A stretch of 64,000 nt of DNA from Sulfuricurvum sp. (GCF_028713855.1 NZ_JAQTNN010000004.1:1-64000); one strand, 5' to 3'; shown: positions 29,865 to 46,394, numbered from the stretch's first letter. Notes: a model not told the origin generated them from the sequence alone. A program made the numbers and translations.

Positions 29865-30652
29865 AGATTTTCAGTATCTTCGGTGATCCCATCAGCCATT
29901 CACGCTCACCCTTGATGCATAACAGTGTCTTCAAAGCGTTAGGCATTTGTGCTTGCTACTCCCGAACCCATTTGAATAACAGCTCACAGCTGCGTGACGT
30001 TTTTTTAGCCAAAAAACTCAGTGGTGCCAATATCACCGTCCCACACAAAGAAGCAGCATACGCCCAATGTGACGAAGTACGAGGTATCGCAAAAACGATT
30101 AAAGCCGTCAATACCATTGTGTATGAAAAAGGAAAACTCATTGGTTATAACACCGATGCAGACGGTTTTATGAGTGCCATACAATCGTTCGGCCCTATCA
30201 AAAATGCGCTAATTTTAGGAGCAGGCGGAACAGCACGTGCACTCTCGATCGCACTGCTTCGAGGAGAAATAACCCCTACCATTCTCAACCGCTCACCCGG
30301 GCGGCTGGATTTTTTTACCAAGGAAGGGATAACTGCATACTGTTGGGACGGTTTTACCGCTAAAGATTATGATCTGATTATCAACACCACTTCGGCGGGA
30401 CTAAGTGATGAGGAATTGCCCATCCCACGACCGCTGCTTTTAGAACTCTTATCCCGATCCAAAGGGGCGGTTGATGTTATCTATGGGAAAGAAACCCCTT
30501 TTCTACGTGAAATCAAAGTCAGCGGCCTCCCCTACAAAGATGGTTCTGATATGCTCTTGGCACAAGGCGTTTTAGCCTCGTACCTCTTTTTGGGCGGTGA
30601 GTTTGCACTTAAAACCATCGAAGTACCTATGAAACACAGCTTTAACCTCTAA
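29861..30652 (+). CDS. aroE: Shikimate dehydrogenase
   Basis: NADPH-dependent reduction of 3-dehydroshikimate to shikimate. The 263 residues have the substrate domain motif GDPISHSRSPLMHN, the catalytic Lys in NITVPHKEAA and the dinucleotide loop LILGAGGTARAL. The stop overlaps the modE start as TAATG, which links an aromatic-amino-acid gene physically to the molybdenum island. Confidence 0.94.
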   Translation: MKIFSIFGDPISHSRSPLMHNSVFKALGICACYSRTHLNNSSQLRDVFLAKKLSGANITVPHKEAAYAQCDEVRGIAKTIKAVNTIVYEKGKLIGYNTDADGFMSAIQSFGPIKNALILGAGGTARALSIALLRGEITPTILNRSPGRLDFFTKEGITAYCWDGFTAKDYDLIINTTSAGLSDEELPIPRPLLLELLSRSKGAVDVIYGKETPFLREIKVSGLPYKDGSDMLLAQGVLASYLFLGGEFALKTIEVPMKHSFNL

Positions 30653-31428
30653 TGAAAATCGACGGACGTTTTTGGCTCACCAAAGAGGGGCAAAGTTTTC
30701 TCGGTTCAGGACGGATCGAACTGCTGGAGCGAATCGATAAAATCGGTTCAATCCATGCTGCCGCCAAAGAGATGAAAATGAGCTACAAAGCGGCATGGGA
30801 GCGAATCAACGGCATGAATGCCCTCGCCGATCAGCCCCTCATCGAACGGACAACCGGAGGCAAAGGGGGCGGAGGAACAAAACTTACCCCCTATGCCCGT
30901 GAACTGATCGCAACCTTCCACCGATTTAACGAACTTCACCGCCAGTTTATCGACCGATTCTCAGAAGCGGGTAATGATCCTGAACGTCTGGCACGAATTT
31001 TAAGCCGTACCTTCCTGACTACCAGTGCTCGTAATCAGCTCCCGAGTGTACTCAAAGAAATCCATACAAACGGTCTGCATTCCACCCTCACCCTCGCCCT
31101 CAGCGGTTCGGATGTCATGCGCTCTACCATCACCGCCAAATCGGTACTCAATATGGGGCTCACAGTGGGATGCGATACCTACGCAATTATCAAATCGAGC
31201 GATATCCATGTCGTCTCCACACCACCCTCTTCCGACGCCGAGGATAACGTCCTCGCCGGTACGGTAGAAACCCTTGAAACTTCAGGGGTAAATATCGAGA
31301 TCGGATTGCGCTTGGATGGTGGTACCTTTCTCATCGCCCTCGAAAAACAAGATTCACTCCAAAATCTACAAGTCGGAATGACCGCCTACGCTATTATTTC
31401 GCCGTTGCATATTATTATCGGGCTGTAA
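30652..31428 (+). CDS. modE: Molybdate-responsive transcriptional regulator ModE
   Basis: The 258-residue protein has the full ModE layout: an N-terminal winged helix (1-110; GSIHAAAKEMKMSYKAAWERINGMN is the recognition part, with TTGGKGGGGTKLTPYARELI as the wing) and two C-terminal Mop/TOBE domains. Mop 1 starts near TSARNQLPSVLKEIH and Mop 2 near DNVLAGTVETLETS. With bound molybdate, ModE dimers repress uptake genes at Mo-boxes and may activate Mo-enzyme genes. It is coupled to aroE (TAATG). Four candidate boxes lie in the genes that follow. Confidence 0.95.
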   Translation: MKIDGRFWLTKEGQSFLGSGRIELLERIDKIGSIHAAAKEMKMSYKAAWERINGMNALADQPLIERTTGGKGGGGTKLTPYARELIATFHRFNELHRQFIDRFSEAGNDPERLARILSRTFLTTSARNQLPSVLKEIHTNGLHSTLTLALSGSDVMRSTITAKSVLNMGLTVGCDTYAIIKSSDIHVVSTPPSSDAEDNVLAGTVETLETSGVNIEIGLRLDGGTFLIALEKQDSLQNLQVGMTAYAIISPLHIIIGL

Positions 31429-32238: not shown

Positions 32239-32244
32239 TATAAT
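32239..32244 (+). promoter_or_regulatory. -10 element of the mop-modA operon
   Basis: TATAAT touches the left edge of the palindromic ModE box (32244-32271). A bound repressor would cover the transcription start. The -35 region (GGACA around 32216-32220) is weak. Confidence 0.5.
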
Positions 32245-32271
32245 TCGTTATATCTTACAAAACATAACGAA
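32244..32271 (+). promoter_or_regulatory. Candidate ModE box A (perfect palindrome)
   Basis: TTCGTTAT and ATAACGAA are perfect inverted repeats 12 bp apart. The E. coli Mo-box ATCGnTAT-12-ATAACGAT has the same half-sites and spacing, with a difference only in the outermost bases. It lies about 80 bp upstream of mop, overlaps a -10 element, and is 820 bp from the modE stop. Confidence 0.75.
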
Positions 32272-32321
32272 ATTGTCGTATTTTTTGCGAACCGTTTTTG
32301 CAATGTTAGGTTTGTAGTTAT

Positions 32322-32342
32322 CGTTATATCAAAACAGATACA
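32322..32342 (+). promoter_or_regulatory. Candidate ModE box B
   Basis: CGTTATATC, six bases (AAAACA), then GATACA, directly abutting the AAGGAG ribosome-binding site of mop. The same CGTTATATC-N6-GATACA occurs at 35579 and 42402. The left half is identical to that in the palindromic box A. Confidence 0.65.
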
Positions 32343-32353
32343 AAGGAGCCTCC

Positions 32354-32770
32354 ATGTTAACCTCTGCCCGTAATACCCTATACGGTACCGTCGATTCAGT
32401 TATCACCGGTGCGGTAAATTCTGAACTCATTTTATCAGTCGGTTCGGAAAAACTTGTCGCTACTCTCACCAATGAGTCGGTTAAGAATCTCGAAATAGCC
32501 ATCGGGTCAAGTGCCTATGCCCTCATCAAATCGAGCTCAATTATTTTGGCGAAAACCAAACCGTTGCGTATCAGCGCGCGTAATGTTCTCCGAGCTACCG
32601 TAAGCGAAGTGATCAAAGGGGCGGTAAATGCTGAGATCAAAATGACAATCGGAAACACTACCCTCACTTCAATCATTACTAATGAATCGTGCGATGAGCT
32701 GATGATGAAAAAAGACGATGATGTCTATGCTATCTTCAAAGCTTCTAGTGTCATTATCGGCATGTTGTAA
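32354..32770 (+). CDS. mop: Mop-type molybdate-binding protein (tandem TOBE domains)
   Basis: The 138-residue cytoplasmic molbindin consists of two Mop domains, about 1-68 (TSARNTLYGTVDSVITGAVNSELILSVG) and 70-138 (ISARNVLRATVSEVIKGAVNAEIKMTIG). Such proteins oligomerise and store or buffer molybdate. It is first in the operon with modA behind boxes A and B. No ATPase or DNA-binding domain is present. Confidence 0.92.
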   Translation: MLTSARNTLYGTVDSVITGAVNSELILSVGSEKLVATLTNESVKNLEIAIGSSAYALIKSSSIILAKTKPLRISARNVLRATVSEVIKGAVNAEIKMTIGNTTLTSIITNESCDELMMKKDDDVYAIFKASSVIIGML

Positions 32771-32782
32771 AAAGGAACCTCA

Positions 32783-33541
32783 ATGAAACTGATAAAAATT
32801 GTATTGGCATCCCTTGTGTTTGCCTCCGCACTTGCGGCACAAACGATCACTGTTGCCGCTGCGGCCAATATGAAGTATGCGGCGGATGATATCGCCAAGG
32901 TGTTCACTAAAGAAAGCGGAATCGGCGTCAAAATCATCACCGGATCTTCCGGTAAACTAACGCAACAAATCATGAGCGGTGCACCCTACGATGCGTTTCT
33001 CTCTGCCGACGTCGAGTTTCCGGCAAAATTGGCACAAGGTGGGTTTACGACGACTCCATCACAAGTATATGCTTATGGGACGCTAATCCTCTGGAGTGCT
33101 ACAGGTGCCGATCTCTCAAAAGGGGTTGCCGTTGTCGCTGATCCATCGGTTAAAAAAATCGCCGTTGCCAATCCAAAAACAGCCCCATACGGTATCGAAG
33201 CGATGAACGCGATGAAATATTACAAAGTAGCGAATGATGCGGCACCTAAAATCATTACCGCCGAATCCATTTCACAAGTGGGTGCCTATGTCACGACTCA
33301 AGCGGTCGATATCGGGTTTATGGCCAAATCAATCGTCCTCTCCCCTGAGATGAAAAATGTCGGGAAATGGGTTGAAGTCGATCCTAAATCGTATAACACC
33401 ATCGATCAGGCAATGGTAGGACTCAAAAACGCTTCTCCTGAAAATCAAATCGCGGCTAAAAAGTTCCTCCGATTTATGTCATCAGCTAAAGCATTAGAAA
33501 TTTTAAAAGCAAACGGGTATGGCTTACCTGCTAAAAAATAA
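32783..33541 (+). CDS. modA: Molybdate ABC transporter, periplasmic binding protein
   Basis: The 252 residues begin with a signal peptide (1-19, cleaved after ALAA). ModA features follow: ITVAAAANMKYAADDIAKVF, TGSSGKLTQQIMSGAPYDAFLSADVEFP and PKTAPYGIEAMNAMKYY. The Ser-Ser loop and AP(Y)D segment bind the oxyanion. The partners modB and modC are 14 kb downstream (47627 and 48298), so the transporter is split around the TonB/FecCD section. Confidence 0.94.
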   Translation: MKLIKIVLASLVFASALAAQTITVAAAANMKYAADDIAKVFTKESGIGVKIITGSSGKLTQQIMSGAPYDAFLSADVEFPAKLAQGGFTTTPSQVYAYGTLILWSATGADLSKGVAVVADPSVKKIAVANPKTAPYGIEAMNAMKYYKVANDAAPKIITAESISQVGAYVTTQAVDIGFMAKSIVLSPEMKNVGKWVEVDPKSYNTIDQAMVGLKNASPENQIAAKKFLRFMSSAKALEILKANGYGLPAKK

Positions 33542-33550
33542 GGATCTGTC

Positions 33551-34921
33551 ATGACAAAATTAAGTATTGCAACCGCACTGATTTTAGGAACCTGTGTGTT
33601 TGCTCAAGCGGCGGATGATTTAGCCTCAGCATTTAAAGAGGGAAAACTGGACGGTCGTCTCAGAGCTCAATATTTTGCTACTGATTGGGATAACGATGCC
33701 AAATACAGTGCGACCGGATTTGCCATCGGCGGAAGTTTGATTTATAAGACGGCACCTTTGTATGGATTTAGTTTCGGTACAGGTCTCTATACCACCCAGA
33801 ACCCGGGCGGATGGACGGACAAAGAAGACGGTACAAATGCCAATACAGCCAAAGATCTATTCTTACGAGGACCGGGATCAGCTTATAGCTACGGTGAAGG
33901 GTATGCGGTTTTAGCGCAAGCGTATTTGCAATATGACCTTGCAAAAAGTAAAATCAAAGCGGGTCGAATGCTGATGAGTAATCCATGGATGTCTCCGAAC
34001 GATACTAAAATGATCCCTATTGCGCTTGAGGGGGCTGATGTCGTTTCCAATGATCTGCTCAACACGACGATACAGTTGAACTATGTCGATAAAATCAAAG
34101 AACGCGGTATGGACTATTTTGGGAATATGGCCGAAACACTGGACACACCTACAAAAATCAGCAATTATTATGACACGGGGTATCACACAAGCGGAGCGAC
34201 ACACGGTGAGGCTCCAAATGTCACTATCGTCGGAGTAACCAATAAATCGATTGATAATCTTGAGCTCCAAGGTTGGGTAATGCATTGGCCGGATTTGGTC
34301 GATCATCTCCGTCTCGAAGCTAATTACGCACTCGAAGCGGGAGATGTTATCCTCGGATTCGGCGGTTTATACATGCAACAGTATGACAAAGGTGCAGGAG
34401 ATATTATCTTGCCTAAAGTTAACAACTATGATAGTGACAACAGTGTCGATACCTATCTTTGGGCATTAAAAGCAACAGCAAATTATCGTGCGGCAACTTT
34501 TTTACTCTCAACATCACACACGGATGGCGGTGCAGATATGATTGCACCTTGGCGCGGATTCCCGACGCAGGGCTATACTCGCAGTATGACGCAAACCGAT
34601 TGGAATGCCAATACAGACGCCTACAAAGCTCAGTTTGATTATGACTGTAATGCTATCGTATCAGGGGTCAGCACCATGCTAAGCTATTCGTATTATGACC
34701 GTGATCCGAGTAAAAAACCGTATCAAAGCATGACCGACAGAGCTTTCGGAAACGGTGACACCCGTCAATGGAACTTTGATGTGACCTACAAACTTTCCGG
34801 TAATTGGAAAGGGACAGAGCTTAAAGCCCGTCTAATGGATCAGAACAATGATCAAACAACTTTGGCAACGGCAGAAACATCTAACCGCGAAATGCGTTTG
34901 GAAGCGAACTACCGTTTTTAA
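33551..34921 (+). CDS. Outer-membrane porin, Opr family
   Basis: The 456-residue beta-barrel protein has a signal peptide (1-20, cleaved after AQA), alternating amphipathic strands and a terminal phenylalanine (LEANYRF). The opening DDLASAFKEGKLDGRLRAQYFATDWDN is typical of Campylobacterota OprD-like porins. It is 9 bp after modA, so it is likely cotranscribed and could be the outer-membrane pore for free molybdate. Selectivity cannot be read from sequence. Confidence 0.86.
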   Translation: MTKLSIATALILGTCVFAQAADDLASAFKEGKLDGRLRAQYFATDWDNDAKYSATGFAIGGSLIYKTAPLYGFSFGTGLYTTQNPGGWTDKEDGTNANTAKDLFLRGPGSAYSYGEGYAVLAQAYLQYDLAKSKIKAGRMLMSNPWMSPNDTKMIPIALEGADVVSNDLLNTTIQLNYVDKIKERGMDYFGNMAETLDTPTKISNYYDTGYHTSGATHGEAPNVTIVGVTNKSIDNLELQGWVMHWPDLVDHLRLEANYALEAGDVILGFGGLYMQQYDKGAGDIILPKVNNYDSDNSVDTYLWALKATANYRAATFLLSTSHTDGGADMIAPWRGFPTQGYTRSMTQTDWNANTDAYKAQFDYDCNAIVSGVSTMLSYSYYDRDPSKKPYQSMTDRAFGNGDTRQWNFDVTYKLSGNWKGTELKARLMDQNNDQTTLATAETSNREMRLEANYRF

Positions 34922-34928
34922 TATATCT

Positions 34929-34941
34929 CCCCTCTGAGGGG
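34929..34941 (+). terminator. Weak hairpin after the porin gene
   Basis: CCCC-TCTGA-GGGG lies 7 bp past the stop codon without a T-tract. It may attenuate rather than end transcription into the globin gene, which has no clear promoter of its own. Confidence 0.35.
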
Positions 34942-34978
34942 GCTAACGTAAAGTTTTAAGAATACGAAAGGAAATAGC

Positions 34979-35557
34979 ATGACAATTTTAATGTCTGAGG
35001 GAAAACCGGTATCAATGTTCAGTGCATGCGGAACAAAACCATTTCAAAGCGCAAGTATGACACCCCATACTGCCGAAGCTAAAATCGACTTTGTCTATCC
35101 CGAAGTCGCTTTTCCTTCCATCCTCCTTTATCAACAATGGGGTGAAGAAAATATACGTCAAATGGTCCGTTACCATCATGGTTTACTTCGTAAAAGTGCT
35201 ATCGGCAATCTCTTCCCTGCTGATGATTCCATGTTTACCTTTGCAACCGAAAAGACCGCCGATTTTTTCGTCGAAGCACTCGGAGGGGAAAAAGCCTATA
35301 CCTCGGTACATGGTCATCCCGCTCTAAGAATGCGCCATTTTCATATCACTATCGATGAAAAAGGGCGTGAAATTTGGCTGATGATGTACAAAAAAACAAT
35401 CAATGATCTGAGTATGCCACCTGAGCGTATCGAAGAGTTTTGGAACTGGATCGAGCCGCTTTCTATCCGTATGATCAACCGTCGAACCACCGTTGCACCG
35501 ATCGAACGCCACCCTTATGCCTCTATTTGGAAGCAAATGGGAAACGAGGAAAACTGA
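34979..35557 (+). CDS. Globin-domain protein (truncated-haemoglobin type)
   Basis: The 192-residue protein contains a truncated-haemoglobin fold at about 45-160. The sequence YHHGLLRKSAIGNLFP is near the B-E helices, and HGHPALRMRHFHITIDEKGREIWLMMYKKTI carries the candidate proximal histidine. A 35-residue N-terminal extension and a C-terminal tail flank it. These globins bind O2 or NO. The ribosome-binding site is GAAAGGAAAT. It ends one base before tonB, so it is in the Mo-uptake operon. Its function there is unknown. Confidence 0.75.
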   Translation: MTILMSEGKPVSMFSACGTKPFQSASMTPHTAEAKIDFVYPEVAFPSILLYQQWGEENIRQMVRYHHGLLRKSAIGNLFPADDSMFTFATEKTADFFVEALGGEKAYTSVHGHPALRMRHFHITIDEKGREIWLMMYKKTINDLSMPPERIEEFWNWIEPLSIRMINRRTTVAPIERHPYASIWKQMGNEEN

Positions 35558-35558
35558 G

Positions 35559-36332
35559 ATGTTTTTTTTAAACCCTACCGTTATATCAAAAAAGATACAC
35601 AATAAGAACTCTTTATCAAAAACAAAATCATTTGCCGCTTCAATCGGGGTACATGCTACCCTGTTGGCGGCCATATCTTATTATATAGCGCTTCATCCGA
35701 TCCCTATGCCCGAAGCAGAAAAAACGATCACGATCTCCCTCTCGGATTTTACGTCGACCAGCGGTGATATACAACGGATGGAGACCTCTGTTTTGCACAA
35801 AACTCAGATGATACAAAAACCGGTTCAAACATCCAAAGTACAACCTCTAACGGTTCCTTTAAAACCTCTGATTTCTACGACCCCTGAGCGGACACCGTCA
35901 TTAACTCCTTCGGTGTCCTCTGAGGCGTCCGCGCCCCTAGCCGTGTCCCAATCCGCGTCTTCAGTTTCGCCAGCCAAAAACGACAATGATTCTCCTCATT
36001 TGACACCATCCGGCTCTGAAAAAGAATTACCAAAAAACTCAGATAATCAAATCGGCGGAGCGGCATTGGGACACATTCGAGCTATGATCGAAAATGCCAT
36101 CACCTACCCTACTATTGCACGAAAATTGCGATTGGAAGGGGTTGTAATGGTCACATTTATTCTACAACCAAACGGTACTGTTGAAATGGCACAGGTTAAA
36201 TCAACCAGTGGCAGTAACGTACTCGATACCAAAGCGATACAAACGATTCTCAGCCTCAGCGGTGATTTTCCCGCATTGGGAAAAACCTTTGAACTGAGTA
36301 TCCCTATCGCTTTCAGTTTACATAAATCCTAA
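35559..36332 (+). CDS. tonB: TonB-family energy transducer
   Basis: The 257-residue protein spans the inner membrane once (about 28-46) with the TonB-type S-x3-H pattern (SIGVH) in that helix. A long Pro/Ser/Thr-rich periplasmic stretch follows, then the C-terminal TonB domain (about 180-257, YPTIARKLRLEGVVMVTFILQPNGTVEMAQV). It transmits proton-motive force to outer-membrane receptors; two are encoded just downstream. No exbB/exbD is in the island, so it must borrow ExbBD from elsewhere. The ATG at 35559 is one base after the globin stop; codons 7-14 overlap box C. Confidence 0.88.
   Translation: MFFLNPTVISKKIHNKNSLSKTKSFAASIGVHATLLAAISYYIALHPIPMPEAEKTITISLSDFTSTSGDIQRMETSVLHKTQMIQKPVQTSKVQPLTVPLKPLISTTPERTPSLTPSVSSEASAPLAVSQSASSVSPAKNDNDSPHLTPSGSEKELPKNSDNQIGGAALGHIRAMIENAITYPTIARKLRLEGVVMVTFILQPNGTVEMAQVKSTSGSNVLDTKAIQTILSLSGDFPALGKTFELSIPIAFSLHKS
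35579..35599 (+). promoter_or_regulatory. Candidate ModE box C, inside the start of tonB
   Basis: CGTTATATC-AAAAAA-GATACA is the same motif as boxes B and D. It falls within the first 14 codons of tonB. It could act as an internal roadblock or mark an internal promoter. Alternatively tonB translation may start downstream, though no in-frame ATG lies before the membrane helix. Confidence 0.6.
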
Positions 36333-36341
36333 AGGAAACCT

Positions 36342-37364
36342 ATGAATACGTTGCTTAAAGTACTCCTTTTATCGGTGTTTGTTGTTGGAGCCCATGCAAA
36401 AACAATCACCGATATGGATGGACATCCGGCTATACTTCCCGATCAAACCGATCGTGTTTTCGGTTCATCTCCCCCGATGAATTATCTCATTTATACCCTC
36501 AATCCGGAAAAAATGATTGGTCTCAATTTCGCGGCAAAAAATGCGAATAACAGCGCTGATGAGAAGTATCTGAATAAAAAATTTCTCTCTCTGCCGGTAA
36601 TAGGTTCCTTTCACGGTGGTGGACAAAATATCAATCTCGAAACACTCATGACATACAAACCGCAACTCGTACTCGTATGGCAAGATGATATGCTGGTTCA
36701 AACCGTCGCACATGAAATCGAAAAAACCCATATTCCGACCTTTATGATTCCGTTTCGGGAAATCAACGATATGCCGCGTGCATTCCGTCTTGCCGGGGAG
36801 GCTATCGGTGAGGCTAAACGTGCAGGCGTATTGGCTTCCTATTCCCAAAGTATTATCAATGAGGTACATAAGAGTGTTGTCAAAACCAAACCTGTTCGCT
36901 ATTACTATGCGGAAGGATTGGATGGTCTCTCTACCGAGTGCGACAAATCGTTTCATGTCGAAGCGCTTAATTTCGCCGGAGGAGAGAATGTCCATAAATG
37001 CCAACAAAGCGGTATCTTAGGGTTAGAGAAAATCAGTTTTGAGACTCTCCTTTCTTACAATCCTGATGTCATTGTCGTCCAAAATAAAAGTGTTTATTTT
37101 GATCTCAAAAATGATCCTATGTGGAAAAATCTCCGTGCGGTACAAACAGGACGTATTCACCTTGTCCCCGTGCAACCGTTTAACTGGATAGACCGACCAC
37201 CGTCTTTTATGCGAGTACTAGGTATTCAATGGGTTGATTCAATTTTCCATCCAAAAACTTATAAAGTAGACCTGACCCAGCGTACAAAAGAGTTCTATAC
37301 GCTTTTCTTACACGTCAAACTCAGTGATCAAGAAGCTAAAAATCTATTAGGAGCCAACCAATGA
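36342..37364 (+). CDS. Periplasmic metal/metallophore binding protein (BtuF/MolA-like), copy 1
   Basis: The 340-residue class III (FecB/BtuF fold) binding protein has a signal peptide ending AHA and no lipobox. Two Rossmann-like lobes are joined by a long helix. Signatures shared with the second copy at 41414 are TITDMDGHPAILPD near the N terminus, YYYAEGLDGLSTECD, GLEKISFETLL and FNWIDRPPSFMRVLGIQW. Fold and operon match MolA of the Haemophilus MolBCA system for molybdate/tungstate; vitamin B12 or iron chelates are the alternatives. Confidence 0.82.
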   Translation: MNTLLKVLLLSVFVVGAHAKTITDMDGHPAILPDQTDRVFGSSPPMNYLIYTLNPEKMIGLNFAAKNANNSADEKYLNKKFLSLPVIGSFHGGGQNINLETLMTYKPQLVLVWQDDMLVQTVAHEIEKTHIPTFMIPFREINDMPRAFRLAGEAIGEAKRAGVLASYSQSIINEVHKSVVKTKPVRYYYAEGLDGLSTECDKSFHVEALNFAGGENVHKCQQSGILGLEKISFETLLSYNPDVIVVQNKSVYFDLKNDPMWKNLRAVQTGRIHLVPVQPFNWIDRPPSFMRVLGIQWVDSIFHPKTYKVDLTQRTKEFYTLFLHVKLSDQEAKNLLGANQ

Positions 37365-39607
37365 AGCTTTCCCCTCTTGTAATTTCCATCGCCGCGTGTG
37401 CGGTACTTGCCGCGAGTCCTTTAAGTATCGAACGTATCGTAGTTAGCGATACGGTTGATTATAACGATCTCTTAGGCGCAGAAAGCAATCTCTCCAAGGG
37501 CTCACAAACCTTTGGAGCTAAAAGCATCGCCACCCTCAGTACACAGGCTAATATGAACCCTTACAGCGTTATCGCTTATTCGCCTTCGGTCAATTTTACC
37601 CCTGTCGATCAGGCCGGATCGAATGAGCCTTCTTATCATGACCCAATCCGTATCCGCGGTAAAAGCCAAAGTGGTCCCGGAGGGGTCTTTATGATCGACG
37701 GTATGCCGATCTCCAGTAATCCCGGTGGCGGAAAACAGTTGATGGATATGGAAAATGTATCCTCAATTGATTTGTTCAAAGGGTATCTCCCATCTGATAA
37801 AAACCTCGGATTTTCATCTTTGATCGGTAAAGTCGATATGAATGTTCTCGGTGCAAAATCGAAATCCGCCGCAGAAGTGTCTCAATCGTTCGGTTCGGAC
37901 AACTTCCAACGTACCTTTGTCCGCTTCGATTCGGGTAAAGTCGGCGATATAGCGGTATTCGGTTCATTCTCACAACTCACCAATGACAAAACAAAAGGCG
38001 AAGGGGATCTCAAACGGCTCAACGGTACTGTAGGACTCACCTATACCCCTAACAGTACGTTTAAAGCTAAACTCACCGCGATCCGTAATGCGGACGATCA
38101 TCATAACTATTACAATCTCAGCTATGCGGAAGCCAATGATTTGGGTAAATATTTTTCAAAAGATTATGCAACAACCAAACCGACTACCGCTAATAACGTC
38201 AACTACTATGATTTCAATAAACAAAAATTTTATACCACGGCAGTTTTAGGCGAATTTGAATATAAACCGACGTCATCAGATGTCATTACCATCAAACCCT
38301 ACTATAAAAAAGACAAAGGAGAATATTGGTATTCCAGTGTCAGCAGCGATGGTAATGCCAGTAAAAATCGTGTCATTAACTGGAAGATCGATCATGATCT
38401 CTTCGGTGCCGTAACCTCGTATGATCATACTTTTTCCGAAGCGCTCAAAACGTCTATAGGGTATTGGTATCATAAACAGCTCCCTCCCGGACCTCCTGCT
38501 GATCAAGAAAAATATACGGTTAACAGCAGCGGTAATTTGGTATTTAACGGATATGCCGTACTTGCCGACAACGACTACCATATTTTGCAAGCCCCTTTCG
38601 CACAACTGAGTGGAACAATCGACCGATTAACCTATACCGCAGGATTACAATATCAAACTTTCAAACTCGGTTCGCTCCACAGCTATACGAACGGGACAGG
38701 TGCATCTACCAGCTCGAACTATGATACTGCAATTGCCAACGGGACATTGGATACATACTCAAGTGTCGATGCAAAAACCTTTCATACTTTTATTCCATCG
38801 CTCTATGTAGGATATGCAATATCCCCATCGACTTCAGCGTATATCGATTACTCACGTACTTACGGATTTGACGTCAATCTTTTCCCTACGTATGTTTCGA
38901 ATCGAGCCAACTTCGTCAGTAAGAACGTAACGCTCCAACAGCTTTGGGATAAACTTGATTTGGAACTCTCCGATAATATTGATTTAGGCTTCAAATCCAC
39001 CATTGGTTCGATCACTCTGAATCCAAACCTTTTTGTATCTTACGTACAAAACAAACAAGCCAACGTTTATGATCCGCAGTACGGTGTCTCGTATCCTGCA
39101 AATATCGGTGATGCATTCGGATACGGTGCGGAGTTCTCAGCCTATGGACCGATCAATGAAAATCTTGAGTTTCTTTTGGCACTTTCATATAATCAGTACC
39201 AATTTACCCAAAACTTTCAAAGCGGTACAAGTACAACGGTCAACACAGATGGCAAACAGCTCCCTGACGCACCGGAGTATATGGCTAAAGTCGCTCTCTC
39301 TTACCACCTAGGGGATTGGACGCTAACTCCAAGCGGACGTTATACCTCCAGCCGATGGGGAGATGTACAAAATACCCAAAAAATCGATGCATTTACGCTG
39401 GTTGATTTTGATGTAGCTTACCGTATGACACAGTTTATGGGTTCACATGATGCTCTTTTCCGTCTCACAGCCACGAATCTGACCAATGAAAAATACATTG
39501 CAACCATCAATGCTGCGGATAATTATCTCGCTGCCACCGGTGTCACGACTACCTATCAAACCGGTGAACCGTTCGGACTGTTCGGCAGTATCAATCTGAA
39601 GTTTTAA
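37361..39607 (+). CDS. TonB-dependent outer-membrane receptor 1
   Basis: The 748 residues comprise a signal peptide (1-19), a possible TonB box near ERIVVSD, a plug domain (about 40-170, with PIRIRGKSQSGPGGVFMIDGMPISSNPGGG) and a 22-strand barrel ending in the required aromatic (INLKF). Unusually for this family, the gene is translationally coupled (4-bp overlap) to its presumed periplasmic binding protein. Substrate is inferred from the ModE-linked context to be a molybdenum or tungsten species. Confidence 0.88.
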   Translation: MKLSPLVISIAACAVLAASPLSIERIVVSDTVDYNDLLGAESNLSKGSQTFGAKSIATLSTQANMNPYSVIAYSPSVNFTPVDQAGSNEPSYHDPIRIRGKSQSGPGGVFMIDGMPISSNPGGGKQLMDMENVSSIDLFKGYLPSDKNLGFSSLIGKVDMNVLGAKSKSAAEVSQSFGSDNFQRTFVRFDSGKVGDIAVFGSFSQLTNDKTKGEGDLKRLNGTVGLTYTPNSTFKAKLTAIRNADDHHNYYNLSYAEANDLGKYFSKDYATTKPTTANNVNYYDFNKQKFYTTAVLGEFEYKPTSSDVITIKPYYKKDKGEYWYSSVSSDGNASKNRVINWKIDHDLFGAVTSYDHTFSEALKTSIGYWYHKQLPPGPPADQEKYTVNSSGNLVFNGYAVLADNDYHILQAPFAQLSGTIDRLTYTAGLQYQTFKLGSLHSYTNGTGASTSSNYDTAIANGTLDTYSSVDAKTFHTFIPSLYVGYAISPSTSAYIDYSRTYGFDVNLFPTYVSNRANFVSKNVTLQQLWDKLDLELSDNIDLGFKSTIGSITLNPNLFVSYVQNKQANVYDPQYGVSYPANIGDAFGYGAEFSAYGPINENLEFLLALSYNQYQFTQNFQSGTSTTVNTDGKQLPDAPEYMAKVALSYHLGDWTLTPSGRYTSSRWGDVQNTQKIDAFTLVDFDVAYRMTQFMGSHDALFRLTATNLTNEKYIATINAADNYLAATGVTTTYQTGEPFGLFGSINLKF

Positions 39608-39612
39608 GGGCT

Positions 39613-40635
39613 ATGATGAAAAATATCAAACCGATCAGTTGGATAATCGGCTCAACAGTGCTTTTACTCGTTGTCGCCACATTATCTCTATTATGGGGAC
39701 AGTATCCGATTACACTGGAGACATTGATCGGCTATCTCCAGTTTAAAGTTCTCGGAGGAGTAGGCAATGATACCTATACCCTCCTCGATAACATTATTTT
39801 ACAGATTCGTCTTCCTCGTGTCCTACTCGCCATCCTCATCGGATCAGCTCTAGCAACCTCCGGTGCCGCGTTTCAGGCAATGTTTGTCAATCCTCTCGTC
39901 TCACCGGGGATTTTAGGAGTACTCGCTGGGGCATCATTCGGTGCGGCAATGGGGATGCTTATAAGCGAGCAATGGTACGTCGTTCAGTTGCTCGCATTTG
40001 CCTTCGGATTTGTCGCGGTCGGAGTTGCGGTACTCATCGGGACAATGGTAACCAACTCACGCTCAACCGTGATGCTGGTTCTCGGAGGGGTTATCAGTAG
40101 TGCGCTCTTTACCTCGCTCCTCTCCATCATCAAATACCTCGCTGATCCCTACAGCACTCTCCCAGCCATCGTTTACTGGTTGATGGGGAGTTTGACCATG
40201 GCGGATTTACATGGAGTATTGCTTATCTCGATTCCGATGCTTGTCAGTGTCATTGGGATGATTGTATTGGGCAAATACTTCGATCTCATGAGCTTGGGAG
40301 ATGAAGAGGCAAAAGCATTAGGGATTAATGTTACGATGATTCGTCTAGGGGCAATTATACTCGCAACATTAGCCAGTTCACTCTCCGTCGTTATGGCGGG
40401 GATTATTGGATGGATCGGGCTTATCATCCCTCATATCATCCGTATGGCGGTGGGACCCTCACATCGACTGTTGATGCCTCTTTCGGCGATAGTGGGAGGG
40501 GCATTTTTGCTCCTTGCCGATACCATCTCACGACTGGCTTTCACCGTCGAAGTCCCTATCGGAATTCTCACGTCGCTTATCGGGATTCCTGTCTTTATCA
40601 TCGTACTTAAAAACGCGAGGGCAGCATGGAACTAA
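39613..40635 (+). CDS. FecCD/BtuC-type ABC permease
   Basis: The 340-residue inner-membrane protein has about ten helices and the FecCD signatures LPRVLLAILIGSALATSGAAFQAMFVNPLVSPGILGVLAGASFG and GIIGWIGLIIPHIIRMAVGPSHR. It would form a homodimer with the ATPase that overlaps it by 10 bp. The BtuCD/MolBC class carries bulky chelates and, in Haemophilus MolB, molybdate. Confidence 0.92.
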   Translation: MMKNIKPISWIIGSTVLLLVVATLSLLWGQYPITLETLIGYLQFKVLGGVGNDTYTLLDNIILQIRLPRVLLAILIGSALATSGAAFQAMFVNPLVSPGILGVLAGASFGAAMGMLISEQWYVVQLLAFAFGFVAVGVAVLIGTMVTNSRSTVMLVLGGVISSALFTSLLSIIKYLADPYSTLPAIVYWLMGSLTMADLHGVLLISIPMLVSVIGMIVLGKYFDLMSLGDEEAKALGINVTMIRLGAIILATLASSLSVVMAGIIGWIGLIIPHIIRMAVGPSHRLLMPLSAIVGGAFLLLADTISRLAFTVEVPIGILTSLIGIPVFIIVLKNARAAWN

Positions 40636-41417
40636 AACCTATCATTACGGTAAATGATCTCCATTTTTCGTACCCTAAGCGTCCGGTATTGGAAGGGATC
40701 GATTTCACCCTCCGTCGCGGTGAGGTCGTCAGTCTGTTAGGACCAAACGGATGCGGTAAAAGTACCCTTATTCGCCTTATCCTCAAACTTATCAACGCTA
40801 AACGGGGTGAGATATGGCTCAACGACAAAACGCTGCACCGCTATTCGCATCGTGAGATCGCAGAACATATCGCCTATATCCCCCAATATCACAACGTACC
40901 GTTCAACTACAGTGTACTGGAGATGGTCATCATGGGTCGTGTATCCAAGCTCGGATTTTTCGCTGCCCCCTCCGCTCGTGATTATACTATTGCCCATGAA
41001 GCATTGGAAAGAGTCGGGATTGCCGATTTAGCCGCGCGTCCTTTCGGTCAGCTTAGCGGCGGACAAAAACAGATGGTACTTCTCGCTCGTGCCCTTACCC
41101 AGGGGGTGGATACGTTTATCATGGATGAACCGGTATCGGGTCTCGATTACGGTAACCAAATTCGCCTTTTGGAACTGATTGTATCTCTCAGTACCCAAGG
41201 CTATACCTTTCTCAAAACGACCCATTATCCCGATCATGCTCTGCTGGTTTCCAGCCGAGTCGCAGTAATGAACCACGGTAAAATCATCGCTGACGGCACT
41301 CCTGAAGAGGTAATAACCCCTGATATGATCCATGACGTTTATGGAATAGAAGCCGACCTCATCGTCCACGATACCCATACCCGCTGTCTCCCGATTTTTA
41401 ACAAAGGAACTCTATGA
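40626..41417 (+). CDS. FecE/BtuD-type ABC transporter ATPase
   Basis: The 263-residue nucleotide-binding subunit has Walker A GPNGCGKST (about 38-46), Q-loop IPQYHN, signature LSGGQKQMVLLAR and Walker B TFIMDEPVSGLD, then an H-loop TTHYPDH. It overlaps both the permease before it and the second binding-protein gene after it. One ATPase therefore seems to serve two binding proteins. Confidence 0.93.
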   Translation: MELKPIITVNDLHFSYPKRPVLEGIDFTLRRGEVVSLLGPNGCGKSTLIRLILKLINAKRGEIWLNDKTLHRYSHREIAEHIAYIPQYHNVPFNYSVLEMVIMGRVSKLGFFAAPSARDYTIAHEALERVGIADLAARPFGQLSGGQKQMVLLARALTQGVDTFIMDEPVSGLDYGNQIRLLELIVSLSTQGYTFLKTTHYPDHALLVSSRVAVMNHGKIIADGTPEEVITPDMIHDVYGIEADLIVHDTHTRCLPIFNKGTL

Positions 41418-42385
41418 AAATACTTATCCTCATAATCGGATTGCTTATTACAAACGTACAAGCTCGTACCATCACCGACGATTACGGCAGAGTTGTTACG
41501 ATTCCCGATAAAATCACCAAAATCTATTCGGCTTCTCCACCGCTGACTATCAGCCTAACAGCGTTCGATCCCTCTCTCGTTGCAGGATTAAATTTTCCGT
41601 TTAGACCCGACCAAAAACCCTATGTCGGTGTAGCCGCTTCACGTCCGGTGGTTGGTGGATATTTTGGACAAGGCAACACTCCTAACATAGAAATTTTAGC
41701 TTCCATAAAGCCCGATGTTATTCTCATGTGGGGGAATGCAACCGGTGTTGAAAATCAACTCGGTAAGTTATCCGCGTTAGGTATCCCCGTACTCCTCGTT
41801 CGTGACGACACGATCAATGATCTTGTGGGAGAGTTCAATCTCTTAGGCAAACTCACCGGAAACACTAAACGATCCTCCGAACTCATCGCCTATACCCAAG
41901 AGACCTTAGGATTGATAAAATCGCTTCAGGCCAAAGTCAATGCACGTAAAGACGTTCGCTACTACTTTGCCGAAGGGTTGGATGGAATGTCGAGCGAGTG
42001 TGAAGGTTCAAGACACCTCGAGCCTTTCACCTACAGCGGAGCCAAAAATGCTATTAATTGTAAAGTCTCTTCCCATTACGGGATGGAAAAAATATCACTG
42101 GAAACAATCCTCCTCGCCGATCCGGATGTCATCGTTGCCATGGAAGAGTCATTTGCAACATCGCTTAAAACCAATCCTCAGTGGAAAAATCTTCGTGCGG
42201 TTAAGAGTGGACACGTTTTAACTGTCCCTACCCTACCGTTCAACTATATCAGCCGTCCCCCGTCTCTCACGAGACTCATGGGAATACGGTGGCTGATACA
42301 CACCTTTTATCCCGATCTGATCGCCCCAATCGATCAGGAGAAAAAACGGTTTGAAAAACTCTTTTTCCCTGCCTATCGGGGATAA
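41414..42385 (+). CDS. Periplasmic metal/metallophore binding protein (BtuF/MolA-like), copy 2
   Basis: The 323-residue paralogue of the protein at 36342 has a signal peptide ending VQA and no lipobox. It shares TITDDYGRVVTIPD, RYYFAEGLDGMSSECEGSRHLEPF, GMEKISLETILLADPDVIV and LPFNYISRPPSLTRLMGIRW. The conserved Glu-Gly-Leu-Asp-Gly and Arg-Pro-Pro-Ser segments in both copies are candidates for the ligand pocket. Two copies may differ in ligand or affinity. It is the last gene before box D. Confidence 0.84.
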   Translation: MKILILIIGLLITNVQARTITDDYGRVVTIPDKITKIYSASPPLTISLTAFDPSLVAGLNFPFRPDQKPYVGVAASRPVVGGYFGQGNTPNIEILASIKPDVILMWGNATGVENQLGKLSALGIPVLLVRDDTINDLVGEFNLLGKLTGNTKRSSELIAYTQETLGLIKSLQAKVNARKDVRYYFAEGLDGMSSECEGSRHLEPFTYSGAKNAINCKVSSHYGMEKISLETILLADPDVIVAMEESFATSLKTNPQWKNLRAVKSGHVLTVPTLPFNYISRPPSLTRLMGIRWLIHTFYPDLIAPIDQEKKRFEKLFFPAYRG

Positions 42386-42401
42386 GCGTTTTTTTAACTA
42401 T

Positions 42402-42422
42402 CGTTATATCATATTTGATACA
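42402..42422 (+). promoter_or_regulatory. Candidate ModE box D
   Basis: CGTTATATC-ATATTT-GATACA ends 13 bp before the ATG of the luciferase-like gene, overlapping the region just upstream of its AGGAAG site. Same motif, orientation and N6 gap as boxes B and C. Confidence 0.65.
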
Positions 42423-42435
42423 TATAGGAAGTACC

Positions 42436-43443
42436 ATGAAAATAGGACTATTTTGCCTTAGCGAAAACTACTCCGGCAATGTGCAAGAGAGCATTATGGA
42501 ACAGCTCCGTCTCGTTGAGTTGGCCGATGAACTCGAATTTGATGAAGCGTGGTTCGGCGAACACCATTTCAACGCTTTTAGCGTCATTCCCGATCCTGCG
42601 GTAATGATCGGTTATGCGGCGGGGCGTACCGGATGTATCCGACTGGGGAGCGCAGGGTTTCTCGCCCCCTTTTACCACCCCGTCCGACTCGCTGAAAGTA
42701 TCGCGGTGCTCGACAATCTCTCAGACGGTCGGATCAATGCGGGATTTGCCAAAGGGGGATTCGCTCCCGACACCAGATATTTTCTTCAAAACAAAGAGGA
42801 TCTAAGAGCGGTGATGTACGAGAGCGTCGAGTCCATCGATGCCTTGTTGCACGGCAACGATACTGAGTACAACGGTGATTTCGTCCAAACCAAAAACATT
42901 CCCATCGCACCTCATCCGATCCAAACGCGAGTCCCCTTTTTCGTCGCGACCTTCTCCTCCGAAGAGACGATAGCATTTGCCGCACGGCACGGCTATGGGC
43001 TGATGATGTCCCAAGGTGCCTCTTTAGAGGAGTGTATCGAGGCACGTAACCTTTATCGCTCGATCGCAGAATATGAGCCCGAAATGGTCATCATGCGGGT
43101 TTTTTATGTCGCCGATACGTACGAAGAGGCATCACGCGCTGTTTGGCCGGCGATCGATCATTTTGTTCGGTGTATGCGCGCCGTCCAAGAAGAGCAAACC
43201 CAGCCGACATTCGATCTCGAAGCCTACCAACTGCTTCTAAACGAGCGCAAAGGGTTTTTCAACGGTCAGAAGTTTTTTGACAACGCCATTTTGGGAACCC
43301 CCCAACAGTGCATCACTACCATTAAAACCATCCAAAAGGAGCTTAATCACGTCCACCTCGTCCTCAAACCCTCTTCCACCGATCATGCTCAAAATCAGTG
43401 GATGCTATCACGGTTCAATGCCGAAATCCGACCCTACATTTAA
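42436..43443 (+). CDS. Luciferase-like flavin monooxygenase (LLM)
   Basis: The 335-residue TIM-barrel protein of the bacterial luciferase family starts MKIGLFCLSENYSG and contains FDEAWFGEHHF, the LGSAGFLAPFYHPVRLAESIAVLDNLSDGRINAGFAKGG block and an AILGTPQQCITTIK tail. These enzymes use reduced flavin and O2, some to break C-S or C-N bonds in scavenged compounds. The start at 42436 has AGGAAG upstream and is preferred to a TTG at 42415 that lies inside box D. I infer a substrate connected to the neighbouring transport system. No flavin reductase is adjacent. Confidence 0.86.
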   Translation: MKIGLFCLSENYSGNVQESIMEQLRLVELADELEFDEAWFGEHHFNAFSVIPDPAVMIGYAAGRTGCIRLGSAGFLAPFYHPVRLAESIAVLDNLSDGRINAGFAKGGFAPDTRYFLQNKEDLRAVMYESVESIDALLHGNDTEYNGDFVQTKNIPIAPHPIQTRVPFFVATFSSEETIAFAARHGYGLMMSQGASLEECIEARNLYRSIAEYEPEMVIMRVFYVADTYEEASRAVWPAIDHFVRCMRAVQEEQTQPTFDLEAYQLLLNERKGFFNGQKFFDNAILGTPQQCITTIKTIQKELNHVHLVLKPSSTDHAQNQWMLSRFNAEIRPYI

Positions 43444-43458
43444 ACTTAAGGAAAAAGA

Positions 43459-45537
43459 ATGAAGAAACATATGTTATTACTATCACTGGCAACTGCGTCG
43501 GTTTTATACGGTACAGAGGGAGTCTTTGAACTCGGCAAAGTTGATGTAACGAGTACCTCGGATACATCGAGTTCTACGACTACGATCATCGATGCACAAG
43601 CGATGCAAGATCATGAACGAAAAACCGTCGTCGAAGCGCTTAACCTTCTACCGGGTGCAACGATCCAAAGTTTTGGTGCCCGTAATGAACAGATGATTAT
43701 GATACGAGGATTTGACGTTAAACACGCCCCGCTCTTTATCGACGGTATCCCTATCGCCGTACCGTATGACGGATACGTTGATTTCTCGCGATTCACGACG
43801 TTCGATCTCTCCGAAATCGAAGTCTCCAAAGGACTCGCGTCTCCCCTTCTGGGAGCCAATACCTTTGCGGGTGCGATCAATCTCGTTACCAAAAAACCGA
43901 CCAAAGAGTTCGAAGGGGAAGTCGGAGCAGGATTTTTCAGCGGAAACGGACGAACCGAATACATCAACCTCGGAACCAATCAAGGGAGCTATTACATTCA
44001 GGCATCCGGATCTAAAACCCAGCGCGATACCTATCCCCTCTCCGATGATTTCACCCCTGTACGCACGATCAATGAAGACGGCGGCGATCGCAACAACGCC
44101 TATGCAACCGACGACAAGCTCAATCTAAAAGTCGGATTTACCCCGAACTCAACCGACGAATACGCCATCAACTACATCCGCCAAAATGCCGACAAAGGGG
44201 TTCCACCGGATGAGGCGATGAACTTGTCGGGGCGCGGGTTCTGGCAATGGCGCTATTGGGACAAACAAAGTCTCTATTTCCTCTCCAAAACCGATTTTGG
44301 AAACTGGTATCTCAAAAGCCGCGTCTTTTATGACAAATTCCAAAACTCACTCGCGATCTATACGAATAACGGCTTGTACAACACCTTTGCCTATGGAGGA
44401 GTCGGTAATCCTAGCTGGTATGACGAATACACCAAAGGGGCATCATTAGAGAGCGGAGTAAAACTCTCTTCCGATAATACCCTCAAAATGGCGCTTCACT
44501 ACAAAATCGACGACCACCAAGAAGGGGGCGTTAATCAAGTGGCGGTCTATGAGATGAAAGATACCATCAGCTCATTCGGCATCGAAGATACCCATACCTT
44601 CTCTAAAACACTCAAACTGACCATCGGAACCAGCTATGACCGCGAAGAGATCGATACGGCGCAAAATACCCAATACGGCAAACCCAATACCAATTATTAT
44701 AATGATGGTGCTGGAGTGAGCCAAAACACAACGACCGGATACACAACAAGCCAAGAGTTTGCCCACGGAGACACCTCCTCCTTTAATCCTATGATCAAAC
44801 TGGAGGGACAAATCGATGATTCCCTCTCATGGTACGGCGGTGTTTCAGGGAAAAGCCGTATCCCATCGATCAAAGACCGCTACTCGTTTAAATTCAACAC
44901 CTTTGTCCCGAATCCTGCACTAGATGTTGAAAAAACCATCAACTACGAAGTGGGCGGAACCAAATCACTCGGAAATGCGTCGTTTAGCGGAGCCTTGTTT
45001 TACGCGGATGTGAGCGACTACATCCAAAGCGCTTATATACCGCTCTGGTACAAAAGCGGAGCAACCTACACTCAACAGCAACAACTCCAAAACGTCGGAA
45101 AAGTAACCCAAAAAGGGTTTGAACTATCCACCGTCTATGCACCATTCGAATCACTTTCCTTTGAGGGGAGCTACACCTACCTGAAAATGACCAACGAAGT
45201 CGATGAGAGCCAAAAAATCACCGACGTACCGAAAGAGAAGTTCATCGCTACCGTCGCCTACACTCCGATCGAAAACCTGACATGGTTCAATACCTATGAG
45301 TATGATTCAGAGCGTTATGCCGCTACGGGAACGACCGGAACCGCACCCAATACGAAAAATCTCTATAGTTCAACAGGATGCGTCTCGGTGTGGAATACCA
45401 AAGCGACCTTGAGAGCTACCAAAGCGGTCTCATTCGATTTGGGTATCAACAATGTATTCGATCGAAACTTTTACTACAGCTACGGCTATCCTGAAGCGGG
45501 ACGCAGTGTCTTCGGCAATATCCGTTACAAATTTTAA
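43459..45537 (+). CDS. TonB-dependent outer-membrane receptor 2
   Basis: The 692-residue receptor has a signal peptide (1-18), a TonB-box-like KVDVTST, a siderophore-receptor-style plug (VVEALNLLPGATIQSFGARNEQMIMIRGFDVKHAPLFIDGIPIAVPYDG) and a barrel with a terminal IRYKF. A hairpin follows the stop. It is not closely similar to receptor 1, so the island has two different outer-membrane gates. It follows the monooxygenase by 15 bp and is probably under box D. Confidence 0.9.
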   Translation: MKKHMLLLSLATASVLYGTEGVFELGKVDVTSTSDTSSSTTTIIDAQAMQDHERKTVVEALNLLPGATIQSFGARNEQMIMIRGFDVKHAPLFIDGIPIAVPYDGYVDFSRFTTFDLSEIEVSKGLASPLLGANTFAGAINLVTKKPTKEFEGEVGAGFFSGNGRTEYINLGTNQGSYYIQASGSKTQRDTYPLSDDFTPVRTINEDGGDRNNAYATDDKLNLKVGFTPNSTDEYAINYIRQNADKGVPPDEAMNLSGRGFWQWRYWDKQSLYFLSKTDFGNWYLKSRVFYDKFQNSLAIYTNNGLYNTFAYGGVGNPSWYDEYTKGASLESGVKLSSDNTLKMALHYKIDDHQEGGVNQVAVYEMKDTISSFGIEDTHTFSKTLKLTIGTSYDREEIDTAQNTQYGKPNTNYYNDGAGVSQNTTTGYTTSQEFAHGDTSSFNPMIKLEGQIDDSLSWYGGVSGKSRIPSIKDRYSFKFNTFVPNPALDVEKTINYEVGGTKSLGNASFSGALFYADVSDYIQSAYIPLWYKSGATYTQQQQLQNVGKVTQKGFELSTVYAPFESLSFEGSYTYLKMTNEVDESQKITDVPKEKFIATVAYTPIENLTWFNTYEYDSERYAATGTTGTAPNTKNLYSSTGCVSVWNTKATLRATKAVSFDLGINNVFDRNFYYSYGYPEAGRSVFGNIRYKF

Positions 45538-45545
45538 TCACCTTT

Positions 45546-45562
45546 GGGGAGTCGATCTCCCC
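45546..45562 (+). terminator. Hairpin after TonB-dependent receptor 2
   Basis: GGGGAG-TCGAT-CTCCCC is a perfect six-pair stem 8 bp past the stop, without a strong T-tract. Confidence 0.5.
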
Positions 45563-45572
45563 GATATTTCAG

Positions 45573-45578
45573 TATAAT
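45573..45578 (+). promoter_or_regulatory. -10 element of the methyltransferase-modD-modBC operon
   Basis: TATAAT lies 21 bp upstream of the ATG at 45600, behind the terminator-like hairpin. No ModE box of the CGTTATATC type is seen here, so this last unit may be expressed independently. Confidence 0.5.
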
Positions 45579-45599
45579 AATAACAACTTAGGAGAGACC

Positions 45600-46394
45600 A
45601 TGTTTTTAGAACCGATCAATTTTTCCGCAATGTACCGTGAACACAAAGCCACCACTGATTTCAAAGGAAAAACGAGCAGTGACTGGGATGAAAAATCTGC
45701 CGATATGGCGGCGTCCGTCATCAACAGTCCCTATGTGGACGATTTCATCTCCCGCATGAATATCACGGGGGACGAAGTGGTTCTCGACATCGGATGCGGA
45801 CCGGGAACCCTCGCGATCCCCTTGGCAAAACGGGTCAAAGAGGTGATCGCTATCGACTTCTCCGCCCAAATGCTCGAAGAGTTAAAAGCCTACGCCGCGC
45901 GCGAAGGGGTAACTAATATTAAAACATATCATATAGGTTGGGACGATGACTGGAGCAGTTTGCCGCTGGCTGATATTGTCGTTGCCTCACGCTCCATAGA
46001 GGTCTCTGATGTCGATACAGCGTTAGCGAAAATGTCTGCTCATGCACGCCGTGGATGTTATCTCACCTACAAAGTCGGGGGGAGTTTCGTCGATATGAAT
46101 ATCCTCGATTACATTGGTAAAAAGGTCAAAACGAAACCCGACTACTGGTACATTCCGATCATCCTCTATTCTCACGGCTACCTCCCCCGCGTCGATTACA
46201 TCGAAACAGGTCGGGGAAGCGTCCGAAGCGCCAATGAAGAGGATTTCGTCGAATCGCTGATTTGGAGTGTCCATTCACTCGATGAAGAACAGCAGTTCAA
46301 AGCACGAGAGTATTACCGTGAGGTGATTATCGGACAAAACCGCCCTCCTCGTGCTGTTAACTGGGCATTTATCGGCTGGGAAACATCGATATGA
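45600..46394 (+). CDS. Class I SAM-dependent methyltransferase
   Basis: The 264-residue protein has a Rossmann-type methyltransferase core: motif I VVLDIGCGPGTLAIPLA (about 60-76), the acidic end of strand 2 (VIAIDFSAQMLEEL) and a post-I region IKTYHIGWDDDW. An N-terminal helical extension and a C-terminal lid surround it. The substrate is unknown. It overlaps modD by 4 bp, so its product is probably tied to Mo handling, but no defined pathway includes such an enzyme that I can name. Confidence 0.8.
   Translation: MFLEPINFSAMYREHKATTDFKGKTSSDWDEKSADMAASVINSPYVDDFISRMNITGDEVVLDIGCGPGTLAIPLAKRVKEVIAIDFSAQMLEELKAYAAREGVTNIKTYHIGWDDDWSSLPLADIVVASRSIEVSDVDTALAKMSAHARRGCYLTYKVGGSFVDMNILDYIGKKVKTKPDYWYIPIILYSHGYLPRVDYIETGRGSVRSANEEDFVESLIWSVHSLDEEQQFKAREYYREVIIGQNRPPRAVNWAFIGWETSI

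Follow-up and report, generated by a model that had tools for sequence, protein, structure and literature searches.

Comparison with described systems

The Mo-box consensus of Escherichia coli, as given in PMC545781, is ATCGNTATATA-N6-TATATANCGAT. The operator of E. coli modA reads CGTTATATTGTCGCCTACATAACG, and within the Sulfuricurvum sp. window (the whole stretch of DNA analyzed, 64,000 nucleotides) a near-symmetric box, here termed O1, shares with it the outer arms CGTTAT...ATAACG, the 12-bp inner spacing and the place before modA, in agreement with the Mo-box geometry that had been proposed for this locus in the initial annotation. The helix-turn-helix (HTH) and the wing of E. coli ModE are likewise conserved in the ModE of Sulfuricurvum. 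The two systems differ in the inner bases of the box, which are C/G in Sulfuricurvum (TATATC...GATA) and A/T in E. coli, and in that Sulfuricurvum has extra asymmetric copies at gene starts, either merged with Shine-Dalgarno sequences or lying inside tonB. For the predicted ModE regulons of Geobacter (PMC545781, PMC2700814), the excerpted reports describe an E. coli-like Mo-box before modDABC beside modE, with a similar site (ATCGTTATgTcaTgAAggtTATAGCGtT), but, unlike what is found in Sulfuricurvum, those excerpts describe no asymmetric gene-start or intragenic copies and no TonB/Mol operon.

Two further systems are relevant to the locus. The Sulfuricurvum permease and binding proteins match HI1471 and HI_1472 of the Haemophilus influenzae molybdate/tungstate importer MolBCA (HI1470-1472; PMC4031551), whereas the Sulfuricurvum operon is clustered with tonB and TonB-dependent receptors, has two binding proteins and has a substrate that is putative. 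The mode of action that we suggest for the asymmetric boxes is a repressor roadblock, in which a protein bound within transcribed DNA halts elongating polymerase; an example is the Kpn2I C-protein, which acts on elongation according to the abstract of PMC6237814. That protein is unrelated, and for the Sulfuricurvum boxes such a role is proposed only here. No description of a Sulfuricurvum ModE regulon was found in the literature searched, the scope of which did not extend to the survey of ModE sites by Studholme and Pau (2003).

From the present analysis, a candidate ModE operator and regulon can be described for the sulfur-oxidising bacterium Sulfuricurvum (Campylobacterota). We consider it highly likely that the ModE encoded just upstream uses the boxes as its operators, with shut-off of mop-modA at O1 and the asymmetric boxes as second-tier sites, all of them being candidate sites at this stage. 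The locus is unusual in that operators of an apparent second class stand at the starts of genes and within tonB, and in that the predicted regulon reaches as far as a TonB/Mol route.

Gene cluster and predicted uptake route

The closest relatives of its modE identify the host as a Sulfuricurvum. Genes and boxes are arranged in the order aroE, modE, a toxin-antitoxin pair, O1, O2, mop, modA, an OprD porin gene, a globin gene and tonB, followed by BP1, a TonB receptor, a FecCD permease, an ATPase, BP2 and a luciferase-like monooxygenase, and then by a second TonB receptor, a methyltransferase, modD, a gene for a 133-aa protein, modB and modC. The + strand carries modE, the genes from mop to modC, and all boxes and promoter elements of the window discussed below. 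The modE gene (30652..31428) encodes a molybdate-responsive LysR-type repressor of 258 aa with an HTH and two Mop/TOBE domains (TIGR00637, PF00126, PF03459, PRK10676); its TIGR00637 score, 97 bits, is slightly below the curated cut-off of 98.5, its identity to E. coli ModE is 32%, and the HTH/wing motifs SYKxAW..IN.MN and TGGKGGGG are kept. A full-length ModE, with both HTH and molybdate-binding Mop domains, is accordingly encoded in the same genome as the boxes. The toxin-antitoxin pair (31471-32080; Gp49/HigB-like, with an HI1420-type antidote) lies between modE and O1, and in most relatives O1 is too close behind modE to leave room for such a pair.

Downstream of the operators, mop (32354..32770; TIGR00638, PF03459) encodes two Mop/TOBE domains and no HTH, and modA (32783..33541) encodes the molybdate-binding protein (TIGR01256, 159 bits against a cut-off of 62.5). 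These are followed by the OprD-type porin (33551..34921; PF03573), a truncated-globin-like protein (34979..35557; PF01152) and the tonB-like gene (35559..36332; PF03544 and reading frame). A MolBCA-like uptake operon consisting of BP1, the TonB-dependent receptor, the FecCD permease, the ATPase and BP2 occupies 36342..42385 (PDB matches, Pfam). The stretch 42436..49173 contains the luciferase-like (LLM) monooxygenase (PF00296), the second TonB-dependent receptor (PF07715/PF00593), the methyltransferase, modD (TIGR01334), the 133-aa protein, modB (TIGR02141) and modC (modC-like ATPase); the monooxygenase gene itself, 42436-43443, is situated between the MolBCA-like genes and the second receptor.

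Among solved structures, the best PDB match of the FecCD permease was HI1471 (MolB; E 9e-60). BP1 and BP2 both matched 4pag and HI_1472 (MolA), the latter standing third in both lists after two uncharacterised binding proteins, so that, within this set of structures, MolBCA is the closest match for the permease but not for the binding proteins. Based on these matches, the downstream route is probably one for molybdate/tungstate and not for iron. Molybdate control is predicted for a TonB-dependent MolBCA-like route and a luciferase-like enzyme and, in some relatives, for globins, ExbB, TonB-dependent receptors and nifH. This hints at active uptake of molybdate or tungstate, possibly in complexed form, across the outer membrane.

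Recurrence of the motif and layout of the boxes

Three copies of CGTTATATC-N6-GATACA had initially been noted as identical in both halves, in the six-base gap and in orientation. In a pattern scan of the window the exact motif was found at 32322, 35579 and 42402, each time on the + strand, which confirms the halves and the orientation; the gaps (AAAACA, AAAAAA and ATATTT, respectively) share their length but not their sequence. Scanning of the whole genome, which had been suggested together with footprinting as a check, was carried out by pattern and profile searches. The same three sites were the sole exact matches in the 2,811,533-bp genome, all within one 10-kb stretch, rather than being scattered at random. 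Across 41 Sulfuricurvum genomes the exact motif was found 20 times, compared with 0 for a reversed control pattern, and the matches fall within mod/tonB/Mol/TonB-receptor clusters. When up to 3 mismatches were allowed there were 142 matches versus 67 with the control, indicating that looser patterns return largely background. The recurrence of the motif is real and not due to chance.

Phylogenetic footprinting of ~40 Campylobacterota loci around modE relatives revealed a recurring layout, in which TATAAT is followed after 1-2 bases by CGTTATATCTTACAAAACATAACG (O1) and then by O2, the latter having the form CGTTATATC-N6-GATACAAAGGAG and running into the Shine-Dalgarno sequence of mop or modA. 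Two types of candidate operator can be distinguished: type A is near-symmetric and sits on a TATAAT promoter, and type B is asymmetric, is without that promoter and is found at gene starts. One locus (L046) has lost the leader, and a single near-perfect palindrome lies between its TATAAT and Shine-Dalgarno sequences. The distance between O1 and O2 falls into two classes, 70-71 and 75-77 bp (~20 loci). The presence of two operators ~71-77 bp apart in so many loci is what would be expected if ModE bridged O1 and O2 in a DNA loop, but the two classes are about half a helical turn apart, and hence show no helical phasing, and ModE is a dimer with a single DNA-binding face; we regard looping as highly improbable.

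O1, a probable symmetric operator at the mop-modA promoter

The -10 element of the mop-modA promoter, TATAAT at 32239..32244, was recognized from the sequence and from orthologous sites, and O1 (CGTTATATCTTACAAAACATAACG, 32246..32269), a symmetric type-A Mo-box overlapping the promoter, begins 1 bp after it. Together with its flanks, TT..AA, O1 extends over 32244-32271. A perfect palindrome had originally been reported at 32244; the outer arms CGTTAT-N12-ATAACG are indeed perfect, but the site itself is 32246-32269 and its inner bases are not perfectly palindromic. In the pattern scan O1 was the only perfect CGTTAT-N12-ATAACG in the genome, with half-sites of the CGTTATAT type. Scored on the published E. 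coli consensus, it was the top match of the window, at 15/20, where scores up to 14/20 are reached by chance in 64 kb. Judged by sequence and context, O1 passes as a Mo-box and the type-B boxes do so in degraded form, all of them as candidate sites.

O1 is present in 31 of the 41 Sulfuricurvum genomes. Of 24 orthologous sites, 23 have a 6/6 match to TATAAT as the best hexamer upstream of O1, the background mean being 3.1/6. This anatomy indicates that O1 probably represses initiation as the operator of E. coli modA does. When molybdate is plentiful, ModE-molybdate would occupy O1, over the start of the TATAAT promoter, and initiation of mop-modA would be shut off.

Between O1 and O2 there is a strongly conserved leader element, GAAyNNTTTTTGCA (32289..32302), at a constant distance from O1 and a variable distance from O2. 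It resembles a -24/-12 (sigma-54) element, the first G of the GG being absent in most species, and no such element was seen upstream of the other type-B sites.

Type-B boxes at Shine-Dalgarno sequences

The type-B box O2 (CGTTATATC-AAAACA-GATACAAAG, 32322..32345) begins 32 nt from the mop ATG at 32354, its right half being fused to the mop Shine-Dalgarno sequence (32342-32348), and orthologs of O2 are in the same place in ~20 related loci. The box at 42402..42425 (CGTTATATC-ATATTT-GATACATAT) directly precedes the Shine-Dalgarno sequence of the luciferase-like gene (AGGAA, 42426-42430; ATG at 42436). Boxes of this type also adjoin the Shine-Dalgarno sequence of oprD in the loci of five relatives and, in one Sulfurimonas (L061), that of tonB. 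The asymmetric boxes do not stand out when the E. coli consensus is used by itself: two of them score 14/20, a level for which random sequence of the same composition gives ~5.6 matches per 64 kb on both strands, and the tonB box is outside the top list of matches in the window.

In cluster contexts (n=59), the sequence to the right of exact CGTTATATC copies matches GATATAACG at 6.4 of 9 positions at a spacing of N6 and at no more than 3.6 at the other spacings from 0 to 12, the size of the N6 peak being somewhat favored by the loose right-half demand with which the curated contexts were first gathered. For CGTTATATC elsewhere in the related loci (n=8) the value at N6 was 2.6/9. At the type-B sites the left half conforms to the Mo-box and the right half matches at 5.7-6.6 of 9 positions at N6. 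Since the right half matches the inverted half at N6 alone, the type-B boxes are degraded palindromes and not one-sided motifs. Their right half departs from symmetry where AACG becomes AAGG or AAAGG at Shine-Dalgarno sequences, or where it is replaced by codons in tonB, and on this basis most of the asymmetry is accounted for by the ribosome-binding or coding sequence that the boxes overlap. Such overlap does not explain why several unrelated sites prefer GATACA to GATATA. In addition, the strong half of every type-B box faces upstream, an orientation that a purely symmetric dimer site would not call for.

It had been suggested at the outset that the asymmetry reflects embedded promoter elements. 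This was not upheld: TATAAT is found 1 bp before the symmetric operator but not at the asymmetric ones, where the best TATAAT-like hexamer averages 3.4-4.1/6, as against 5.96 at O1 and 3.1 for background. A related reading, and the main rival to the blocking of elongating polymerase that is set out below, is that the type-B boxes are operators within weak promoters of their own, with TATATC as the -10 and transcription starting in the right half before the Shine-Dalgarno sequence. At mop and the luciferase-like gene, the distance from box to ATG would leave room for a short 5' leader, and a few other boxes in relatives are ~40 nt upstream of the Shine-Dalgarno sequence. On the other hand, TATATC is without the conserved final T of a -10, the box in tonB comes after the start codon, and the TTTTTGCA block is not the -35 of such a promoter, as the spacing between it and O2 varies by 6 bp. 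Taken with the restriction of TATAAT to the O1 sites, these points make promoters of this kind unlikely.

The position of the boxes at Shine-Dalgarno sequences and first codons is also the usual place for translational control, and O1 and O2 contain complementary sequences, ATAACG and CGTTAT, respectively. The boxes might therefore act in mRNA, by being bound by a small RNA or an RNA-binding protein or through pairing between the right arm of O1 and the left arm of O2. However, the same 9-mer, at O1, is in a promoter and for the most part precedes the point where the transcript is expected to start, and so works there as DNA; the O1-O2 helix shows uncompensated mismatches and 0 pairs changed on both sides; an alignment of the leader gave no predicted structure other than the DNA palindrome itself, and no covariation; and the two-fold symmetry of the right half at exactly N6 would be needless for an RNA target. 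Control at the level of mRNA consequently seems very unlikely.

The box inside tonB

The boxes had been described as each preceding or beginning a gene. This is correct for 32322 and 42402, which are upstream of their genes, whereas the third box (CGTTATATC-AAAAAA-GATACACAA, 35579..35602) is inside the tonB reading frame, 20 nt past the ATG at 35559, and covers codons 7-15. About a dozen loci were seen by footprinting to have a box within tonB, 20 nt past the start codon. The codons of the box, in 16 distinct tonB starts, are GTT ATA TC(A/T/C) NNN (AAG or ATG) ATA, a series which in part equals the search pattern. The second Ile codon of the box, not fully selected for by that pattern, is ATA in 16 of 16 sequences, compared with 11% of the Ile codons in the genes of the window, although the 16 sequences are related and do not represent 16 independent events. 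The Lys codon of the box is always AAG, its G being selected for, whereas after the box the two conserved Lys positions (columns 14 and 16) use AAA in 25 of 25. The Ser wobble base, which corresponds to the gap, varies. A constraint at the nucleotide level is visible in the first codons of tonB, as judged from these codon patterns. In a Sulfurimonas locus (L066:2715 onwards) a box is found 20 nt into a short frame that starts with GTG (MNLTTLIVISKKIYNTL...) and is not obviously tonB.

Linkage of the boxes to modE

Among the Sulfuricurvum genomes, O1 was found in 30 of the 32 with a strong modE match, the two exceptions having modE at a contig end, and in one of the nine without such a match (the fragmented G002). 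A sequence profile was built from 36 sites. In the genome of the window it returned exactly four matches with E<1e-3, all of them the island sites (9e-7 to 2.5e-4; O2, 9e-7; tonB box, 7e-5; 42402 box, 2e-4), values that are partly circular in view of the training on island and related sites. Less circular are a fifth match (E 0.011), CGTTATATCAAAAAATAAATAGAGG after CATAAT, which lies directly before a second modA on another contig (C14:60039), and the zero matches obtained in two complete genomes without modE. Boxes stand before molybdate-uptake genes (modA, mop, the second modA and the luciferase-to-modBC cluster) and co-occur with modE. The earlier proposal that these are lineage-specific, partly asymmetric ModE operators is strongly supported by the full-length modE alongside, the near-absence of the boxes where modE is lacking, the conservation in the genus, the Mo-box geometry and the second-modA match.

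An antitoxin gene directly precedes O1, and the TonB/FecCD genes resemble iron-siderophore systems, so the boxes could conceivably belong to another regulator of the island, either the antitoxin of the pair at 31471-32080 or an iron regulator. This has next to no probability: the boxes are kept where O1 comes almost directly after modE, with no space for a toxin-antitoxin pair, and they co-occur with modE, one of them preceding the second modA.

Proposed action of the type-B boxes

We propose that the copies at 32322, 35579 and 42402 serve as second-tier ModE operators within the transcribed cluster. The strong half-site, CGTTATATC, would be kept in each, and the weak GATACA... half would yield its outer part to a Shine-Dalgarno sequence or to tonB codons. 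The action that we consider most likely is steric. Bound ModE would stop polymerase that comes in from upstream, read-through out of aroE-modE included, or would block initiation at weak local promoters; in either case every segment of the long uptake cluster would gain a separate molybdate gate. The roadblock step, taken alone, is put forward tentatively, as slightly the less probable outcome. The same reserve applies to the combined proposal that the asymmetric boxes form a distinct class of post-initiation ModE operator, stopping elongating polymerase segment by segment, and that the operator has dictated part of the TonB N-terminal tail (VISxKIQ), which is an arguable but doubtful possibility. 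The locus would provide a natural case of an operator conserved within coding sequence and fused to ribosome-binding sites.

Further candidate sites in other species

In other species the profile picked out further, near-symmetric sites, several of them after TATAAT; they stand before globins, a Mop gene, ExbB, a di-haem peroxidase operon and nifHD. In three relatives the globin gene comes after a near-symmetric box. A TATAAT-associated box in G023 (contig 4, L217:2441) precedes genes for a 159-aa protein with no Pfam match and a di-haem cytochrome c peroxidase/MauG-like protein. On contig 11 of the same genome (L216:2606), a near-palindromic ModE-like box is situated ~220 bp upstream of nifH-(119 aa)-nifD, which suggests that the Mo-nitrogenase genes of G023 may be under molybdate control. 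Lastly, contigs C1 and C9 of G000 gave identical matches, such as NifH-family genes with equal score and repeated motif matches, which suggest a duplicated stretch or assembly redundancy.
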